Assembly: GCA_021160245.1 (NCBI GenBank)
Contig: JAGHCW010000178.1
Coordinates: forward strand, 1-7,167
DNA: 7,167 nt
Direction of reading: 5' to 3'
DNA from: a bacterium
GTDB lineage: Bacteria; B130-G9
Shown here one piece after another: positions 1-7,167 of this stretch (its first letter is position 1; the number at the start of each line of letters is the position of its first letter). The notes under the pieces were generated by a model. That model saw nothing but the letters and a program-made list of their open reading frames with translations. It did not search any database and was not told the origin of the DNA. The position numbers and the translations under genes were made by a program.

Positions 1-572
1 CTAATGCTCTGTCCCTCCGATTGACTGCCTCCTCTGACCGGGTTGCCTGTCATTATGATGTTACAGCGTCTCGGGAATTGGCCAGCGGCGGGCTGCATTC
101 CGGTGAATATGGCATTTGAGAATCTGCTAAGCAGCTTGTTTGCAAGGCCTGGAACAGCATTGGTCTCAAGAATCGCTCTTGGGATTCGTTTTAGCCAGGC
201 TGCGGCAATTAGGGGACCCGAAACATAGCCTCCGGCGCCGAAGACGATGCAGGGACGGAATTTCCTCAGTATGCGTAGCGATTCGATGAGAGGGCTCATG
301 GAGATTATTTTGAGTGCAGATTTAGCGGCTTTTGAGAGATTGAACGCGCCCTTGCCCCGAGGAATCCCCAGGACATCTATGCTGGCGAAGTCGAACCCAT
401 GCTTTGCAAACAGTGCCTCGTCCATCTTTCCCTTTGCCCCAACGAAGATGAATTTGGCCTCGGGTTCTAGGTCTCGAATGGCTTGAGCGACGACGAGGCA
501 TGGGTAGGCGTGTCCACCGGTGCCGCCGCTGGCCATTAGGATTCTGACCTCTTTATCTTGGATTTTGGTCAT
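1..572 (-). CDS. murG: MurG, UDP-GlcNAc:lipid I N-acetylglucosaminyltransferase, N-terminal 190 residues (runs off left edge)
   Basis: MurG adds GlcNAc from UDP-GlcNAc to lipid I on the inner face of the cytoplasmic membrane, giving lipid II, the last cytoplasmic step of peptidoglycan precursor synthesis. The reading frame is open from the ATG at 572 to the window edge (190 codons plus 2 bases); the family is usually about 355-370 residues, so the C-terminal UDP-GlcNAc-binding domain is mostly outside. Visible family signatures are the glycine loop ASGGTGGH (residues 14-21), the second loop GAGGYVSGP (112-120), ETNAVPGLANKLL (136-148), and GNPVR (176-180) at the domain junction. The segment usually read as HEQN is LETN here. 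The start has an AAAGGG ribosome-binding site (minus strand, 586-581) 8 bases upstream, inside the end of the upstream gene, and the gap to that gene is two bases, so the two are probably co-transcribed and translationally coupled. Confidence 0.97.
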   Translation of the reverse strand, partial: MTKIQDKEVRILMASGGTGGHAYPCLVVAQAIRDLEPEAKFIFVGAKGKMDEALFAKHGFDFASIDVLGIPRGKGAFNLSKAAKSALKIISMSPLIESLRILRKFRPCIVFGAGGYVSGPLIAAAWLKRIPRAILETNAVPGLANKLLSRFSNAIFTGMQPAAGQFPRRCNIIMTGNPVRGGSQSEGQSI

Positions 573-574
573 TT

Positions 575-1789
575 TTACTGCCCTTTAACCGTCGTCATTA
601 ATGGCCCTGAGTATTCGGAGATCGCCACGCTTCGGTAATAGAACTTCAGTATCTGCTTGCATCGATAGCCAGTTTCTGCCATTCGGCACGCGCCCCACTG
701 GGATAGACCTACTCCGTGGCCATATCCCTTGCCTGTGAAGATGAACTTGTCCTTTTGCCTCTTCACTTGAAACATGGTGCTCCTGAGTTTTCTTGTGCCC
801 ATGAGTATCCTGAAGTCCACTCCTCTCATATTGAGTTTGCCGGCGCTGCCTTTGAGGAGAATCGTGCGGACCCGCCCGGACTTGTCCCGGTTTTTCACGA
901 CTATCTTATTCAGGCGACCGATTCTCTTGCCGTTTTTGGCGAGGAGCCGCTCAATGGCCTTGGCCGACAGTTTTAGCTCCCAGCTGCTGTACATTCCGCC
1001 TTCACTGAAGCGGTCCTTTCGGCCCTTGAGGTAGGGCACGTTCGATGACCAGACGTCCTTTGCAGAAGCGGTGTGGCCGCCGCTGGACGCGAAAAAGCAG
1101 GCGTCGATTACATGCTTTTTGTGGGTCAGGACGAGGTTGCGCGTCTTCTTAACGGCCTCGATCGTCTCCGGGCTCTCCGAGTCGCGCCCGGCATAGACCT
1201 GAGATAGGACGCTGTCGCAGACCGAGCCGGCGTTGGGCTCGCTTTTTTCCATACGGTGCAGAATATAGCTTCTCGAGACGATGCTCTGGGCTTTTAGAGC
1301 CTCTGCAGTTGCGGAATCGGGCATCTCAGCGCCTACCACGCTCGCCAGATAGTCACCAAGCGACAGAGTGTTCCGAACAATGAGTAGGCTGTTTCCGGTG
1401 AGGGCAACCTCCATTTTGCCCCGGTATGGCTTCTGATCGATCAGAACGACACCGTCCGAGGAAGCTATGACGAGGCGCTCGGTGGCGACTGCTTCGTCAT
1501 TTATGACGAGTGAAGAGCCCACAGCTTCAATTGTAGCTGCGCGAAAGTCCCAGCGCTTGAAGAGCGGCGCTGATGTTGCGGCATCCAGGATTTGGAGCTT
1601 AGCTGCGTTTGGCGAGCATTTTAGATCAACTGCTTGGCGTTCGGCCCCGAGTCTAACCGTGACCTTCATCTCATCAATGTGACCGGTTTCTGTCGGGGCG
1701 CCTGCAAAGCAGAATGGCATCGTGGACGCTAGGCAAACAAATGCGAGGAGCAAAGGAACGTGCGAATGACCGAGTTCTTTCGTCTTCAA
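575..1789 (-). CDS. SpoIID/LytB-domain protein, exported, probable peptidoglycan lytic transglycosylase
   Basis: Bacillus SpoIID is a lytic transglycosylase that cuts glycan strands lacking stem peptides. Homologues outside spore formers act in cell-wall remodelling or division. The domain covers roughly residues 120-400 (numbered from the TTG at 1789). It includes GDYLASVVGAEMP, whose Glu (residue 155, codon 1325-1327) matches the catalytic Glu of the family, followed by EALKAQSIVSRSY. It also has FFASSGGHTAS with VWSSNVPYLKG, and the C-terminal GYGHGVGLSQWGA block (355-367) followed by ILKFYY. A signal peptide is visible: Lys residues, the core PLLLAFVCLASTMPFCFA, then GAPTE; no lipobox is seen. 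The start is uncertain. The frame stays open to an ATG at 1960, with another ATG at 1882 preceded by AAAGG, but both extend into the opposite-strand gene. The TTG at 1789 is the nearest start that keeps the signal peptide and avoids this overlap, although it lacks a clear ribosome-binding site. It lies directly upstream of murG, a plausible cell-wall operon. Confidence 0.93.
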   Translation of the reverse strand: MKTKELGHSHVPLLLAFVCLASTMPFCFAGAPTETGHIDEMKVTVRLGAERQAVDLKCSPNAAKLQILDAATSAPLFKRWDFRAATIEAVGSSLVINDEAVATERLVIASSDGVVLIDQKPYRGKMEVALTGNSLLIVRNTLSLGDYLASVVGAEMPDSATAEALKAQSIVSRSYILHRMEKSEPNAGSVCDSVLSQVYAGRDSESPETIEAVKKTRNLVLTHKKHVIDACFFASSGGHTASAKDVWSSNVPYLKGRKDRFSEGGMYSSWELKLSAKAIERLLAKNGKRIGRLNKIVVKNRDKSGRVRTILLKGSAGKLNMRGVDFRILMGTRKLRSTMFQVKRQKDKFIFTGKGYGHGVGLSQWGACRMAETGYRCKQILKFYYRSVAISEYSGPLMTTVKGQ

Positions 1790-1841
1790 TTGTGGGGGAA
1801 TCCGCTTCAGGCGAGGACTTATCTTGCTAAGGAGAGACGAA
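1790..1841. other. Short divergent intergenic spacer
   Basis: About 52 bases separate the preferred start of the SpoIID-family gene from the ATG at 1842. Promoters for both directions should lie here or inside the flanking coding ends. I do not see a convincing pair of -35 and -10 boxes at normal spacing on either strand (TATCTT at 1820 has no partner at about 17 bases), so no promoter is called. Confidence 0.5.
1829..1836 (+). promoter_or_regulatory. Shine-Dalgarno site that fixes the 1842 start
   Basis: The sequence AAGGAGAG ends 5 bases before the ATG at 1842, with GGAG at a 7-base spacing. It chooses that ATG over the in-frame TTG at 1824, which would put the ribosome-binding site inside the coding region. 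Confidence 0.8.
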
Positions 1842-2555
1842 ATGAACGTGATAGAACTGATTGAGAGCAAGAGGTGGCACATTCTTTCGACCTTTGTCCA
1901 GTTTGGTATAAGCCCTCGGAGGCTCGAATCCGAATTCACACCGGAGGAGATATACCACATTTATCGCCTGCGCTGCGAGGATTCTTGGGAGCATCGTCAA
2001 CTTCGTCCGCGTTCGGACTTGTCGGCTATATCCGCTGAGAGCCGAAATGGATTGGTCGGACGAGGGGGTGAGTTTCCCAACGATGTGAAATACCTCTCAC
2101 CACGGGAGGCGAGTGATATGGTGGCGCTCTCGCAATCCATTCTGGCTGCCAAAGCCAAGAGGGGGCAGGCATTGTCCGAGCGTGAGAGGATATGGCTTTG
2201 GGATGATAAGAGGCGCCGGGCCTGTCTCGGGACGGATGTCGTGGCGAGGCGATGCAGTATGGACGATTATCTATGGGCCATCTATCGGGAGTACCGCTCT
2301 AGAGGCGTGCATCTCACGATTTCTGCGTGCCGACACATTCATCAGACAAAGCGGAGCATCGCGCCTCTTTATGCAAAGGAGGTCGTGGGAGTGGAGATCA
2401 ATCGGAATGGTCTCAGTCTTTTCTGCGCTCCGCCGAGTCCGTCAGCGGGCGTCAGTTTGCAGAATGATTCTTCTCGCCCGGCTTGGTCATTTGACGAGTT
2501 GTTTTCCCGTCTGAGAGCGGGAATAGAGGCGAGAAAAGCAGACCTTAGGGGCTAG
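1842..2555 (+). CDS. Unrecognised basic 237-residue protein, first gene of the putative tail-like operon
   Basis: I do not recognise this family. The protein is soluble-looking, rich in Arg, Trp and Tyr, with no signal peptide or membrane segment. The N-terminal part contains FGISPRRLESEFTPEEIYHI (residues 21-40), which loosely recalls the 'G-x-P-x3-F-x2-T-P-x-E' pattern found in some phage tail assembly chaperones; this is a weak resemblance only. Residues 85-150 look helical and highly charged (KYLSPREASDMVALSQSILA, then ERERIWLWDDKRRR). A second helical region follows (DDYLWAIYREYRSRG), and the C-terminal tail ends with a charged helix (FDELFSRLRAGIEARKADLR). It opens a run of four tightly packed genes, ends 3 bases before the next ATG, and its 3' end supplies that gene's ribosome-binding site. 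Coding is supported by the strong ribosome-binding site at 1829 and by the operon layout. A chaperone or DNA-binding role are both open. Confidence 0.82.
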   Translation: MNVIELIESKRWHILSTFVQFGISPRRLESEFTPEEIYHIYRLRCEDSWEHRQLRPRSDLSAISAESRNGLVGRGGEFPNDVKYLSPREASDMVALSQSILAAKAKRGQALSERERIWLWDDKRRRACLGTDVVARRCSMDDYLWAIYREYRSRGVHLTISACRHIHQTKRSIAPLYAKEVVGVEINRNGLSLFCAPPSPSAGVSLQNDSSRPAWSFDELFSRLRAGIEARKADLRG

Positions 2556-2558
2556 AAC

Positions 2559-3512
2559 ATGGAAGCGATAGATATTAACGCAGTGGCGTTTCTGCTGGTT
2601 CTGGAGGACGTTTCCTCGGAATACGACAGCCGTGTATCATCGTCTCAGCGGAGCAGTGACATGTTGGATCGAACGGCGACGATGAGAGACGAGGCGCTGC
2701 GCCTTCGGGTGGACGAGGATGCTGAATTGGCGCTTGGCAATAGCGGCATCGCATTTGAGGAGGGGGTGATTTCGCAGTCTTTTGAGCGGGCGTTTGATGC
2801 GAGTTCTCGTTTTCCTGTAGATGACCGGGATGCAAGGGGTGGGTCAATAGAGCCACCGGAGGGGCCAAATTCGGTTGAACATGCTCGTATGGGCGGTTCC
2901 GTTCTTGATGCTAAGCAAGAGACCCGATCTGTGGGTTTTACCAATTTTCTCAATGATCCAGCTTCGAAAGAGAAATTGCCGGTCCGAGCAGCACAGCTTC
3001 AGAATCCAACGGGTCTAGATGGTCACCGTCTCGGTGCGCATGTACCTCCCAATGGTCGCGAGAGCACGCCGAATCAGGGAAGAGGCAGTGTTGAATCCGA
3101 GACGATAGGTGAGTCGCATCCTGTGCCACAGCGACAGCCCATGGTAGATGATGTTCATTCTGCGCCATTCCGAATGCCCAATGGCTCTCTTGTGGCGGGC
3201 GGCGGTACGACCCCGAAGTTAAAGAGACACATTCCCATCGAAGGTTCCGAGCGGCTGGTCGGCGCGGAGGATGCGCGATTGCCTGATGAAGGCGCCAAGC
3301 CTGGACAGGGCAGCGGCAGGTTTGCCCCGTTGGACAGTCGAGGGGGGCTTCGCTCGCGATTCGATCGCAAGGCTTTGAATAGGCGGGCGGAAAGACTACT
3401 TGATTACGAGCGGAGATTGGAGGAGCTGGAGCGGATATCTGCTGTTCGATCCTCAATTTCGTCAAATGGCGTCAGCAGCGACGTGGACACTCAACTTCTT
3501 TTTCCTTTGTAA
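2559..3512 (+). CDS. Unrecognised 317-residue low-complexity protein with C-terminal charged helix
   Basis: I do not recognise this family. Residues 1-22 form a short hydrophobic helix-like start (AIDINAVAFLLVLEDV), too short and acidic for a signal peptide. Residues 23-90 are charged and helix-prone. Residues 90-265 are rich in Gly, Pro, Ser, Arg, Asp and Glu and look disordered. Residues 269-297 form a strongly charged helix with heptad-like Leu spacing (RRAERLLDYERRLEELERI), a possible coiled coil. The protein has no Cys and no Trp, in sharp contrast to the Cys-rich products of the next two genes. The ATG lies 3 bases after the previous stop, with AGGGG 7 bases upstream, so translation is probably coupled. 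Its place just before a hub-like gene would suit an assembly chaperone, scaffold or short ruler protein, but the sequence does not show the long helices of a tape-measure protein. Antisense open frames at 2645-2953 and 2950-3465 are judged shadows. Confidence 0.72.
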   Translation: MEAIDINAVAFLLVLEDVSSEYDSRVSSSQRSSDMLDRTATMRDEALRLRVDEDAELALGNSGIAFEEGVISQSFERAFDASSRFPVDDRDARGGSIEPPEGPNSVEHARMGGSVLDAKQETRSVGFTNFLNDPASKEKLPVRAAQLQNPTGLDGHRLGAHVPPNGRESTPNQGRGSVESETIGESHPVPQRQPMVDDVHSAPFRMPNGSLVAGGGTTPKLKRHIPIEGSERLVGAEDARLPDEGAKPGQGSGRFAPLDSRGGLRSRFDRKALNRRAERLLDYERRLEELERISAVRSSISSNGVSSDVDTQLLFPL

Positions 3513-3551: not shown

Positions 3552-5822
3552 ATGACGGATTTGATATTTGCGCGTGGCGGCGTGGCGGATTATTCAGGAC
3601 TTCATATTCTTCCCGCTGGAGATGTTGGTCATACGATTGAGATCAGTGTTCCTGACCTTTCGATTGGCGCCGAGATTGGTGATTCTCTAAGCGTTGAGCT
3701 TCTCTCTGGTCAGGAGCTGGAATTCACAGTCGATGCGATGAAGATGAAGAAGGCGGGCGAGCGTCGAGTGGCCGTGTTAAGCGGCACTGACGCCGTTTGT
3801 GCTCTGTCACGGGCGGCGCCGTCGAGGGAGCAGATATTTGTGTCGATGACCTCGGGGGAGTATGCGGAGTATCTTGAGAATACGCGGAATCTAAGACCCC
3901 ACTACGACATCCACGTGATGATCGGGGACCAGTTTGGTCGCCGGGGATATTCCTCAATGGAGGTGGCGCGGGCGCTGGCTCTAAAGGGCGGACTAGATGA
4001 TGTTGTGCCGGCTGTCGTTCCCCAGTGGATTAGACAGGTGGTTTGCAGACCAAGTGTCAGTTATCTGTCCGCGATTCTGGCTCTCTTTCGTCTTCAAGAG
4101 CCGATCGTATGGGTCAGAGACAACGTCCTGTTCCTTATGGATAGAACACTTCTGCACAACTTTGCAGAAGATGCGCCGACGGTTTCAAACGGTCTTCTGG
4201 CGTCGCGTGTGGTTTGCCGCCCGGCGCTTTCTGGAGACGGCAGTTTGATGCTCAAGGGTGGACTGGGCAAATTTAGGCCGGACAAGCATCAGGGCAAGGT
4301 GTGGACTGCGCCTTTCTCTCTTGCTTCCGCTCTTTCAAGCGGTGACATCAAGGTCAAGTCGCGCCTCCTCAAGTCCATGCTATCGCTCAGCCATTGCTTC
4401 GGAGGTTATGAGACTTGCGATCGTGTCGAACGAGGCGAGAGCGAGATTCATGTCATAAAGGAAGTTTGGCTGAGGGACGTAATTGGGAATAGACAACGAA
4501 TGCTCTTTTCCCAAGAGAGCGTTTATAGAACTCAGCCTTGCGAGAATTGGTCCTCGACTTCCTCGTGCTGCAATTTTGGACTGCGATGCAATGGGCGGGG
4601 CACTGCCGTATCTTGCGGTTGGTATAATCCGATGCGTGGAGTTCAATGGACGAAGGCGGAGCTGATCAGATGTGAGGAGATGCTGCACCTTTATGAGCAC
4701 ACCTCGTGGGAAGTTGAGACCCCCCGCGAATACGCCAGCCATTCGGTGATTTCCGCGAGCGCCTGGGTTCGACGATGCGGAGAGGGTGGTGATGATGGGA
4801 AGAGCAGACTAGTCAAGGTATGGCTGGACCCTATTGAGTATCAGATTCGGACCTTCTGCTATGACCGAGTATTGGGCACGCTGATTACACAGACTACGCA
4901 GAAGCGAGCGGCTGTCTTTAGCAACACTCCGGACTGCAATTTCGTTGCGGGGTCGTCCTCGGTAGGGGGTGATTCTGTCGGCTGCGAATTGGGGCGAGAA
5001 ACGTGTGATCACTTTAACACGCCTTCCGGCCGCTGTCTTCTTGGCCTCGAATGCAACGAATACGGCCGATTGGCAACTTGTTCGCAATATACTGGCACAG
5101 CACGAACGTGCTCGGTTCATCGTTCCTTTGATGGGACTGAGTGTTGTTACAGGGCGGACTGTCCGGATTGTGACCTGAAGTGGCGGAGACTTGGAACAGT
5201 TAAATCGCCATCGGAGGTTTCTGAAGACGCAGTGATCAAGACCAGCCTTGTTGGTCTTGGGGGTTCTCAGCCGGCGAAGGACGGGCGGAGATCGGCGCCC
5301 GATGGTGTCGATCCTGAGTGCATCATTCATCAGGAGATAATTCGCCATGATCAGGTAGATGCCATGACTTATCGGCGGACGGTTCATACATTGCGGCTGG
5401 CAAGTGGAGTTCTCGAGAGCCGGACCGAATCGCACAATGTGCCGGCGTCAAGCGTTCCCTCGCACCCGATTGAGATGCGGAAGATGAGGGTATCTTCGCA
5501 ACTGGGTGGGTCGGGCGACTCAGCGAGCTCGACGCCTCAAGTGGTTCGGTCGGATTCGAATCTGGTTGATTGGGACGATGCTGACAACGTGGCAGAGAGG
5601 TTGCATGAGAATTTGAGCAGCAGGGGCATAGAGGACACCTACGTCATTCCGGGAGAGGTTTTCATTCAGCCAGGAACTCCGATTCTGCCGCCTGTTGAAT
5701 GCGACAGTGAGCTGCCAATGGCGCCTGATGGGGCCGGGGCTGTAGAGAGATGCAGTATCTCGACATCGACGGAGGAAAGCGGAAAGGGCTTCGCCAGAAC
5801 GGAATTGAGGGTGAGGTACTAG
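3552..5822 (+). CDS. Cys-rich 756-residue protein with hub-like N-terminus (putative tail/injection-device hub)
   Basis: The ATG at 3552 has AGGTGG (3542-3547) 4 bases upstream. Residues 28-90 look like a beta domain (IGDSLSVELLSGQELEFTVD followed by AVLSGTDAVCALSR). Residues 120-197 include GYSSMEVARALALKGGLDD, then IRQVVCRPSVSYLSAILALF and PIVWVRDNVLFLMDR. This order (beta insert with 'IGD..V', then 'YS...VA..LA...GL', then 'PS..YL.AI', then a short 'VLFL') is what I associate with gp27/gpD/gp44-type tail hub proteins; that is recognition by eye, not a search. The rest is beta-rich and holds 27 Cys overall, including two copies of one Cys motif (residues 330-355 and 485-510) and a third cluster (520-540). 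Residues 580-756 are polar; EIIRHDQVDAMTYRRTVHTL resembles the repeated strand pairs seen in hub and tip proteins. There is no signal peptide or membrane segment, as expected for a cytoplasmically assembled particle. The stop lies 2 bases before the next start. The function is tentative, the coding call is firm. Confidence 0.9.
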   Translation: MTDLIFARGGVADYSGLHILPAGDVGHTIEISVPDLSIGAEIGDSLSVELLSGQELEFTVDAMKMKKAGERRVAVLSGTDAVCALSRAAPSREQIFVSMTSGEYAEYLENTRNLRPHYDIHVMIGDQFGRRGYSSMEVARALALKGGLDDVVPAVVPQWIRQVVCRPSVSYLSAILALFRLQEPIVWVRDNVLFLMDRTLLHNFAEDAPTVSNGLLASRVVCRPALSGDGSLMLKGGLGKFRPDKHQGKVWTAPFSLASALSSGDIKVKSRLLKSMLSLSHCFGGYETCDRVERGESEIHVIKEVWLRDVIGNRQRMLFSQESVYRTQPCENWSSTSSCCNFGLRCNGRGTAVSCGWYNPMRGVQWTKAELIRCEEMLHLYEHTSWEVETPREYASHSVISASAWVRRCGEGGDDGKSRLVKVWLDPIEYQIRTFCYDRVLGTLITQTTQKRAAVFSNTPDCNFVAGSSSVGGDSVGCELGRETCDHFNTPSGRCLLGLECNEYGRLATCSQYTGTARTCSVHRSFDGTECCYRADCPDCDLKWRRLGTVKSPSEVSEDAVIKTSLVGLGGSQPAKDGRRSAPDGVDPECIIHQEIIRHDQVDAMTYRRTVHTLRLASGVLESRTESHNVPASSVPSHPIEMRKMRVSSQLGGSGDSASSTPQVVRSDSNLVDWDDADNVAERLHENLSSRGIEDTYVIPGEVFIQPGTPILPPVECDSELPMAPDGAGAVERCSISTSTEESGKGFARTELRVRY
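4539..4616 (+). repeat. Cys motif copy A (residues 330-355 of the 756-residue protein)
   Basis: The spacing is C330-x9-C340-x5-C346-x8-C355, with an extra Cys at 339. Gly343-Leu344-x-Cys346-Asn347 and Gly350 are shared with copy B at the same positions. Four Cys with this spacing suit a metal site ([Fe-S] or zinc). Confidence 0.75.
5004..5081 (+). repeat. Cys motif copy B (residues 485-510 of the 756-residue protein)
   Basis: The spacing is C485-x9-C495-x5-C501-x8-C510, identical to copy A with no gap needed. Aligned over 26 residues, the shared identities include all four Cys, one Ser, Gly-Leu, Asn after the third Cys, and a Gly. The ending GRLATC resembles GTFATC in the next gene. Confidence 0.75.
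5109..5171 (+). other. Third Cys cluster (residues 520-540 of the 756-residue protein)
   Basis: The spacing is C520-x10-C531-C532-x4-C537-x2-C540, ending in CPDC, a knuckle-like pair typical of zinc or iron-sulfur binding. It follows copy B after 9 residues and has no counterpart after copy A. Confidence 0.55.
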
Positions 5823-5824
5823 GC

Positions 5825-7167
5825 ATGTCGAGCAAGCGTCCATTTGACTTGGGGCTTTCATCAGCGACGGTTGTGGCGAGCATATCTCACCGCCTGTTTG
5901 TCACTGCCGACGGCGAGATCGTCGATGGCAATGCGATGCGCGGCGCGAGGGTGGTTATCGAGGATTCCCGTCAGTCGAGCTCGATTGAGGCGAGGCGCAA
6001 GGTTGCAGGGGGCCTGCCGGTGAAGCCGCTTGATGATCTCGAGGATGGCCCGGATACGCCTGCCGTGCGGTTTCGGCTGTGCCTTGACGGGGCAGAGTTC
6101 GAAGAGCCATATACAGGCTGGTTGGGCCGGCTCCTTGTGCTGGAAAACGGGCGAATACCGAGGCTCTATGCTGTCCCGCACAATCCGAAGTATGCGGGCT
6201 ACAGGGACGCTTTTGGCTGCGCTCTTACCTGGGCGAACGGCCTTTGCAGAGCGCACGGGAAATGCCGCAATACTTATGGGCAAACCCCATGCGAGGCGCC
6301 TCGGGGATTTAGGTGCGACGGAACGTTTGCGACCTGCAAGGACCGGGGGAACTTCGCCCCATGTCCGCTGAAGTTCGGCGAGGCGCCCTGTCTGGCAGAT
6401 CCCTCGGGTGAGCCATGCAGTTTTTCCGCTGGGACGTGCAGGGCAGTTGGTCGTGGAGATTACCCGAAATATGGCGAGTCGCTTTATTCGACATTCGGGC
6501 TGTGTAGAAACACGTGGTCAAGCTGCGTTGCTCGAAATTCTTTCCTTCCGCTTCGTCCAGAGCTACATGCTTACTGCCAACCGCGGCTGAAAGAGCCTTA
6601 TGAGCTCTCGCTAGCTTGTGTGAATGGCAATCTGTTTGTCTGGGTTGGTCAATCAGAGGATGTGATTCATCAGGATGATGACGACGGGGAGCAACTTTAC
6701 GAGATACCGGTCGTATGGCTGGCTACTTCCAATTCGATTGAGCTTCGTCGCGAGGAATCAGCGCGAAGAGTGGCGGGCGTTCCGTGCTCGGAAATTCTAG
6801 ATGAGATGCAGGGAACACCTGGCGCGACAGGCGCCTCAGTGGCAGACGTCAATTATTCAATCGGGATGGCGTCAACTGAGGCCCATGCCACTCATCGGCT
6901 TGCCTCCGTGCAGTGGGTTACGACGAATGACGAGAGTTGGTTAAGCCCGCCTGGGAGGATTGTCGTAAATCGATCGTTCGACGGTCAGAATTGGTCGGAG
7001 GACGGCGCTGTCTTCGCCGTTGACGATGTCGTTTTCACAGATGGTCCGGCGGGGAGCATTTGGCCGGCCACGTTTGAGCGTACCGAGTATCGAGCGCCTC
7101 GGGTTCTTATCGAGGGGCCTAATGGTCCGCTGCTCTATAGCCTCAAGGGGCGGGTGGGATACCACAC
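5825..7167 (+). CDS. Cys-array protein, putative tail-tip/hub component (partial, runs off right edge)
   Basis: The frame is open from the ATG at 5825 to the window edge (447 codons plus 2 bases) with no stop. GTGAGGT ends 7 bases upstream, and the gap to the previous stop is 2 bases. Residues 1-130 look beta-rich. Residues 132-251 hold 13 Cys (132, 141, 147, 156, 164, 171, 180, 189, 198, 205, 227, 234, 251). Two blocks end in a C-x6-C pair: RCDGTFATCKDRGN (163-176) and LCRNTWSSC (226-234), each with a Cys pair spaced x8 upstream (147/156 and 189/198). The phrase CD-x2-FATC-[KR]-DR is close to what I recall of the DUF2163/BR0599 tail proteins, and the x8 and x6 spacings recall the four-Cys Fe-S site of lambda gpL. 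Residues 255-320 are beta-rich with an Asp run. Residues 343-447 contain RSFDGQNWSEDG and APRVLIEGPNG, which might be a carbohydrate-binding jelly roll. The likely role is the tail tip next to the hub; the exact function is unproven. Confidence 0.9.
   Translation, partial: MSSKRPFDLGLSSATVVASISHRLFVTADGEIVDGNAMRGARVVIEDSRQSSSIEARRKVAGGLPVKPLDDLEDGPDTPAVRFRLCLDGAEFEEPYTGWLGRLLVLENGRIPRLYAVPHNPKYAGYRDAFGCALTWANGLCRAHGKCRNTYGQTPCEAPRGFRCDGTFATCKDRGNFAPCPLKFGEAPCLADPSGEPCSFSAGTCRAVGRGDYPKYGESLYSTFGLCRNTWSSCVARNSFLPLRPELHAYCQPRLKEPYELSLACVNGNLFVWVGQSEDVIHQDDDDGEQLYEIPVVWLATSNSIELRREESARRVAGVPCSEILDEMQGTPGATGASVADVNYSIGMASTEAHATHRLASVQWVTTNDESWLSPPGRIVVNRSFDGQNWSEDGAVFAVDDVVFTDGPAGSIWPATFERTEYRAPRVLIEGPNGPLLYSLKGRVGYH
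6218..6577 (+). other. Dense Cys array (residues 132-251 of the last protein)
   Basis: Thirteen Cys fall in 120 residues, with recurring steps of 7 or 9 residues (141-147 apart). Block 1 is C147-x8-C156-x7-C164-x6-C171 and block 2 is C189-x8-C198, then C227-x6-C234. The closing pairs align as C-[DR]-[GN]-T-[FW]-[AS]-[TS]-C, showing that the two blocks are related by duplication. Cys 180 and 205 fall outside this scheme. Confidence 0.75.

Follow-up and report, generated by a model that had tools for sequence, protein, structure and literature searches.

Multiplied four-cysteine units in a conserved Coatesbacteria locus and their candidate relationship to the siphophage tail tip

Two adjacent genes of Candidatus Coatesbacteria, an uncultured phylum, encode proteins with repeated four-cysteine units, which raises the question of whether these units form one family, where they come from and what kind of structure they may belong to. 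In this study, we analyzed the stretch of DNA that carries them (the window), which is the entire contig G000:C181 of 7167 bases from a source genome of 3.4 Mb in 244 contigs. Four plus-strand genes (ORF243, ORF317, gene 1 and gene 2) are divergent from the flanking murG and SpoIID genes (Table 1). Full-length orthologues of gene 2 have 710 and 716 aa (L008:4317-6449 and L009:1213-3363), and its C-terminus in the window's own genome was found on contig C177 (C-terminal match G000:C177:20945-21115). The break inside gene 2, between position 7165 of the window and G000:C177:21115, corresponds to a gap of approximately 200 codons, and the remainder of gene 2 on C177 is followed by a 338-aa gene and then a 930-aa gene.

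Table 1. Positions of the genes and cysteine units in the window, with the evidence for each.
Feature	Position	Strand	Evidence
MurG-like glycosyltransferase, partial, flanking host gene	3..572	-	Pfam PF03033, 2e-27
SpoIID family protein, flanking host gene	575..1960	-	Pfam PF08486, 9e-22
ORF243, 237 aa, opens the cluster	1842..2555	+	Orthologues in 4/4 genomes, 41-44% identity, whole length
ORF317, 317 aa, low-complexity middle, fast evolving	2559..3512	+	Equivalent position in 4/4 genomes
Gene 1, 756-aa cysteine-rich protein, 27 Cys, candidate tail-tip structural protein	3552..5822	+	Orthologues 55-60% identical, 4/4 genomes
Gene 1 Cys unit A, residues 330-355, C-x9-C-x5-C-x8-C	4539..4616	+	Spacing kept wherever the stretch is present
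Gene 1 outer Cys around unit B: C462, C478, C520, C537-x2-C540, all invariant	4935..5171	+	Alignment
Gene 1 Cys unit B, residues 485-510, C-x9-C-x5-C-x8-C	5004..5081	+	Spacing kept in 4/4 genomes
Gene 2, N-terminal 447 aa, start ATG 5825, truncated by contig end	5825..7165	+	Full-length orthologues
Gene 2 outer first half, C132-x8-C141	6218..6247	+	In all orthologues with this stretch
Gene 2 Cys unit A, residues 147-171, C147-x8-C156-x7-C164-x6-C171, then KDRxNF	6263..6337	+	Hub-module profile, hhalign
Gene 2 Cys unit B, residues 180-205, C180-x8-C189-x8-C198-x6-C205	6362..6439	+	Hub-module profile, 19.6 bits
Gene 2 outer second half, C227-x6-C234	6503..6526	+	Conserved where covered

First, we examined the cysteine units themselves, which the first-pass annotation had assigned to one motif family shared by both genes. 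The motif instances behind this proposal were present, namely GLRCNGRGTAVSC (residues 343-355) and GLECNEYGRLATC (residues 498-510) in gene 1 and GFRCDGTFATC (residues 161-171, counted from ATG 5825) in gene 2; the range given for them, 4539-6526, has Cys330 of gene 1 and Cys234 of gene 2 as its exact ends, and the strict pattern proposed for them exceeded chance (0 of 20,000 shuffles of either protein). Gene 2 has 12 cysteines within 103 residues (132-234), arranged as three sets of four. Two or more copies of either unit pattern were not obtained in any of 20,000 whole-protein shuffles, and in at most one of 20,000 shuffles of the cysteine-rich region. Copies within the same gene recognized each other by profile, the real score being reached in only 0-2 of 2000 shuffles; units A and B of gene 1, for instance, were each found by the other's profile (1 of 2000 shuffles both ways). 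Cysteine positions and spacing were identical in the orthologues of both genes wherever the stretch was present, and among the homologous loci none was found in which one gene had lost its units.

However, the idea of a single family was not supported across the two genes. The spacing of gene 1 (C-x9-C-x5-C-x8-C) differs from that of gene 2 (C-x8-C-x7/8-C-x6-C), the real scores of the cross-gene profile searches were reached by 116, 134 and 703 of 2000 shuffles, and hhalign of the gene 1 family against the gene 2 family gave an E-value of 0.46 and no register. In addition, the G-F-x-C-D match of gene 2 varies among orthologues (GFTCDRSYSTC, GGTCENTYETC and GMSCDKTYETC). Because the cross-gene comparisons were not significant and G-F-x-C-D was not conserved, the data point to two unit types, each duplicated inside its own gene, rather than to one family. 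The paralogous expansion suggested earlier is thus retained as repeated units in adjacent genes, duplicated within each, whereas its extension to a single family spanning both is not. The two types might still have a common ancestor. That the units of both genes are paralogues of one ancestral unit spread over the pair is an unlikely reading: it is favored by the similar unit lengths (25-26 residues), the residues shared by the window's copies (G-[LF]-x-C-[ND] and [TS]-C) and the adjoining position of the genes, but it is at odds with the different spacings (9-5-8 and 8-7/8-6), the non-significant profile and hhalign comparisons, and the absence of the shared G-F-x-C-D from the residues conserved in orthologues.

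Second, we looked for relatives of the two proteins. Neither had a match above chance in Pfam, PHROGs or NCBIfam, sequence searches of PDB gave nothing meaningful, and an EGF_3 match (E=0.11) was rejected as a match of cysteine composition. Scans of IMG/VR with the two cysteine proteins, the 940-aa protein and a prophage hub, which used short and insensitive peptide patterns, returned no relatives. AlphaFold models of both cysteine-rich proteins, based on 3-sequence alignments, had mean pLDDT values of 30.7 and 29.9 and no usable geometry. For gene 1, no outside relative was detected in any of these sequence resources or in phage records; its spacing of 9-5-8 was not seen elsewhere. Weak outside matches of its cysteine region, several of which contained stops, were treated as chance, as were those of the gene 2 C-terminus. 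The C-terminal third of gene 2, which lies beyond the window (residues 583-692 of the orthologue at L009:1213-3363), has approximately nine further conserved cysteines, spaced C-x6-C-x7-C-x6-C and then C-x7-C-x11-C-x4-C around an invariant LFPHCDGQGTGGAPGG, and no outside relative of this region rose above chance.

On the other hand, a profile of gene 2 searched against 193 genomes matched, beyond Coatesbacteria, three loci in two unrelated genomes (E-values of 1e-6, 4e-5 and 3e-4), and all three matches fell at the cysteine unit. These loci (L025, L026 and L027; two copies in G042 and one in G187) encode prophage hubs with an N-terminal four-cysteine module. Their surroundings are prophage-like, with a tape-measure protein (seen in one of them) and a discoidin-like or related protein of 210-255 aa, followed by the cysteine protein, which matches PHROG phrog_11439, annotated as 'tail fiber protein'. 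The same cysteine protein occurs in cultured phages, including Idiomarinaceae phage 1N2-2, Marinomonas phage P12026, Pseudanabaena phage Pan4, Microcystis phages and Oceanospirillum phage GJ44, and all of these N-termini carry C-x8-C-x(6-11)-C-x6-C (e.g. CSLTYGVAPCTAAGINCHNTLRTCQD). The phrog_11439 profile had matches in 11 of 386 sampled genomes. A hub-module profile built from 10 phage or prophage modules scored 27.8 bits on unit A and 19.6 bits on unit B of gene 2, compared with 8.7 bits for the best of 2000 shuffles, and gene 2 aligned to the prophage hubs by hhalign with a probability of 93.7 (E=2e-7), at the module only. The cysteine region of gene 2 yielded only three tblastn matches among 50,697 phage records, individually not significant (E-values of 1-8), and all three were in tail proteins, from two distinct phages, whose genes lie two or three positions downstream of the tape-measure gene. 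The profile comparisons show that the gene 2 module is homologous to the cysteine module of siphophage tail hubs. Gene 1 did not share this relationship: its units were unmatched by the hub-module profile, and hhalign against the prophage hubs was negative.

A more detailed comparison revealed both similarities and differences between gene 2 and the phrog_11439 hubs, which also go by the name 'tail fiber adhesion' proteins. Both have the four-cysteine module C-x8-C-x6-11-C-x6-C with [TS][FY]G-x-[AS]-P-C and T-C-[KRQ]. However, the phage hubs, including ORF24 of phage 1N2-2, have one N-terminal module, whereas the modules of gene 2, two complete copies and an additional outer pair, are internal, with no similarity outside the module; the full-length phrog_11439 profile matched neither gene 1 nor gene 2, nor anything else in four Coatesbacteria genomes. 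A second cysteine-rich protein upstream (gene 1) was found only in Coatesbacteria. While the phage hub genes sit shortly after a tape-measure gene and a discoidin/Dit-like gene, the Coatesbacteria locus lacks the tape measure. Its gene order nevertheless corresponds to that of phage 1N2-2, in which a tip protein is followed by small gene(s), a spike or fibre gene and an endolysin (amidase).

Third, the possible ligand chemistry of the units was considered by comparison with characterized tail tips. The [4Fe-4S] cluster of the lambda tail-tip protein gpL is coordinated by Cys173, Cys182, Cys205 and Cys212 (PMC10721106), which in the gpL sequence gives the spacing C173-x8-C182-x22-C205-x6-C212. 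The same spacing, C-x8-C-x22-C-x6-C, is also found in gene 2 (C132/C141/C164/C171) in all orthologues with this stretch and in 0.56% of shuffles of the cysteine-rich region, although alternative ligand assignments would fit gene 2 as well. As hhalign between gene 2 and gpL gave an E-value of 0.39, the profile similarity was not significant and no PDB match to gpL structures appeared, the link to gpL is one of spacing and tail-tip role and not of demonstrated homology. gpL also differs in having a single cluster, located in its C-terminal domain, compared with the multiplied modules of gene 2. In RcGTA, the hub protein (gp13) holds an iron-sulfur cluster by four cysteines (PMC7296036), and, as in the Coatesbacteria locus, inherited phage-tail genes are under selection. 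The suggestion of the first-pass annotation that the units build a metal-dependent tip is plausible for gene 2, considering its hub-module match and gpL ligand spacing; the units of gene 1 resemble neither those of gene 2 nor the phage module. Nor does the locus represent an entirely undescribed kind of system, since lambda and RcGTA already provide examples of 4Fe-4S tail-tip proteins.

Zinc ribbons and disulfide-stapled domains typically have cysteine-rich repeats of this size as well. The same tail-tip origin could therefore be combined with cysteines that bind structural zinc or form disulfides and thus rigidify an extracellular tip or adhesin, with no Fe-S cluster at all. This alternative deserves serious consideration but appears the less probable one. 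It is compatible with the unusable AlphaFold geometry and with the fact that iron binding by the phage hub modules was not demonstrated in the literature examined, whereas the C-x8-C...C-x6-C arrangement shared with gpL, whose four cysteines coordinate [4Fe-4S], argues against it, and a role as metal ligands accounts better than disulfides for invariantly spaced sets of four cysteines. The cysteine units of both proteins probably hold metal clusters.

To place these modules in an evolutionary context, we examined the conservation of the locus. Gene 1 and gene 2 were present in all four Coatesbacteria genomes examined, representing three genera, and in each of them the locus adjoins SpoIID-murG as far as the contigs reach (in G002, the contig includes only the start of the SpoIID gene). 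Downstream of gene 2, where contigs allow, we found genes for proteins of 134 aa (confined to genus g2), 338 aa and 930-940 aa, the last with weak similarity to phage families (Phage_cement_2; phrog_12121, 7e-5), and in G001 the last gene of the cluster encodes a phage-type M15 endolysin (phrog_894, 1e-33), followed by host genes. Between G001 and G003, dS values of the cysteine genes (0.48-0.65) were equal to those of murG, SpoIID and a peptidase gene (0.45-0.55), and dN/dS was 0.10-0.15 for gene 1 (approximately 0.11, below SpoIID) and 0.22-0.25 for gene 2. Since dS equals that of the flanking host genes and dN/dS is only 0.1-0.25, the locus has been inherited vertically with the chromosome and kept by purifying selection. 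These values also bear on whether the locus might simply be what is left of a decaying prophage, persisting by chance. Such decay would account for phage-like genes without packaging genes and for a terminal gene that differs between genomes (M15 in G001 and a 136-aa gene in G000), but it is very unlikely considering the selection test, in which gene 1 was even more constrained than SpoIID, and considering that the reading frames are open in all four genomes across three genera, with no internal stops in the cysteine genes. With respect to the 3' end itself, the M15 gene of G001 (L009:7687-8205) and the 136-aa, coiled-coil-like gene of G000 (L023:7671-8081) are unrelated, and the host genes beyond them differ between the two genomes.

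Another question is whether the locus belongs to a larger particle, such as a gene transfer agent (GTA). Tube, tape-measure, portal, terminase and capsid genes were all absent from the locus. Family searches of the four genomes likewise detected no tape measure (PF10145) and no terminases, portal or HK97 capsid (PF03237, PF03354, PF04860 and PF05065); all five Pfam families were detected in control genomes, highly divergent versions could escape such searches, and two of the Coatesbacteria genomes are 83-86% complete. A search with the capsid from the related-hub prophages, for which there was no positive control, gave no match in the four genomes either. GTAs possess packaging and head genes, whereas none were detected for the Coatesbacteria locus, which shares with GTAs the vertical inheritance of phage genes under purifying selection. 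Together with the order of tip, fibre and endolysin genes, which resembles GTA clusters, this would be expected if the locus were one part of a complete but very divergent GTA or phage-like particle, with the head, portal and tail-tube genes at other places in the genome. We consider such a dispersed particle improbable, because terminases (two families), portal, HK97 capsid, tape measure and the capsid of related-hub prophages were all missing from the four genomes, even if divergent genes could have been overlooked. Because each of gpL, phrog_11439 and GTA differs from gene 2 or its locus in at least one tested defining feature, we did not assign them to any of the three.

Overall, the explanation that we favor, with reasonable though far from full confidence, is that the two cysteine genes are part of a domesticated siphophage tail-tip module of Coatesbacteria with multiplied metal clusters. 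Gene 2 would be a tail-hub-like protein in which approximately three tandem or nested modules replace the single four-cysteine module of phage hubs. By analogy with gpL and the RcGTA hub, each module would most likely hold an oxygen-sensitive [4Fe-4S] cluster, or less likely Zn, and the cluster would staple a small domain that otherwise lacks structure, located at the outer side of the tip. Gene 1 might be a partner protein in the same tip, with two further four-cysteine units of different spacing. The downstream fibre-like proteins could then bind the target, and the M15 endolysin/peptidase, in at least one genome, may open the wall. Several observations were counted against a tail tip: lacking tube, tape-measure and packaging genes, the locus does not demonstrate a working tail; gene 1 has no detectable relative and its units are unlike the phage module; and, for gene 2, the link to gpL is based on spacing only, the module is internal here but N-terminal in phages, and pLDDT is low.

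An Fe-S-type cysteine module in the siphophage tail tip was already known. What is new here is the presence of two to three module copies in one protein, a second cysteine protein with its own spacing, and a conserved, headless and inherited locus in Coatesbacteria, for which a search of the literature on this phylum revealed no described phage-derived locus. If the preferred tail-tip reading is correct, the locus is an example of phage-tail genes domesticated in a phylum that has no cultured members. What the Fe-S cluster does in the tail tips of siphophages is still an open question, as has been stated for lambda gpL (PMC10721106), and a tip protein with approximately three copies of the module, maintained by a bacterium rather than a phage, offers a natural way to test the role of the module. 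A bolder and rather doubtful extension is that the phylum has kept a headless phage tail-tip machine as part of its core cellular equipment, with no fewer than four or five metal clusters (probably 4Fe-4S) distributed over two proteins. Such a machine could, for example, serve in adhesion or killing in a manner sensitive to oxygen or redox state, and would be unlike described tailocins and GTAs.

Finally, the two genes upstream of gene 1 were characterized. ORF243, which most likely starts at ATG 1842, had no match in Pfam, PHROG or NCBIfam and belongs to no known family; its core, LARR/VARR-x-SMDDYLWA, is invariant across the four genomes. A programmed frameshift between ORF243 and ORF317, whose frames overlap in G001 and G003, was considered and dropped, as the two ORFs of the window are in one frame with a stop between them. 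The dN/dS of ORF317 was approximately 0.5-0.7 between G001 and G003, although its neighbours are strongly constrained.
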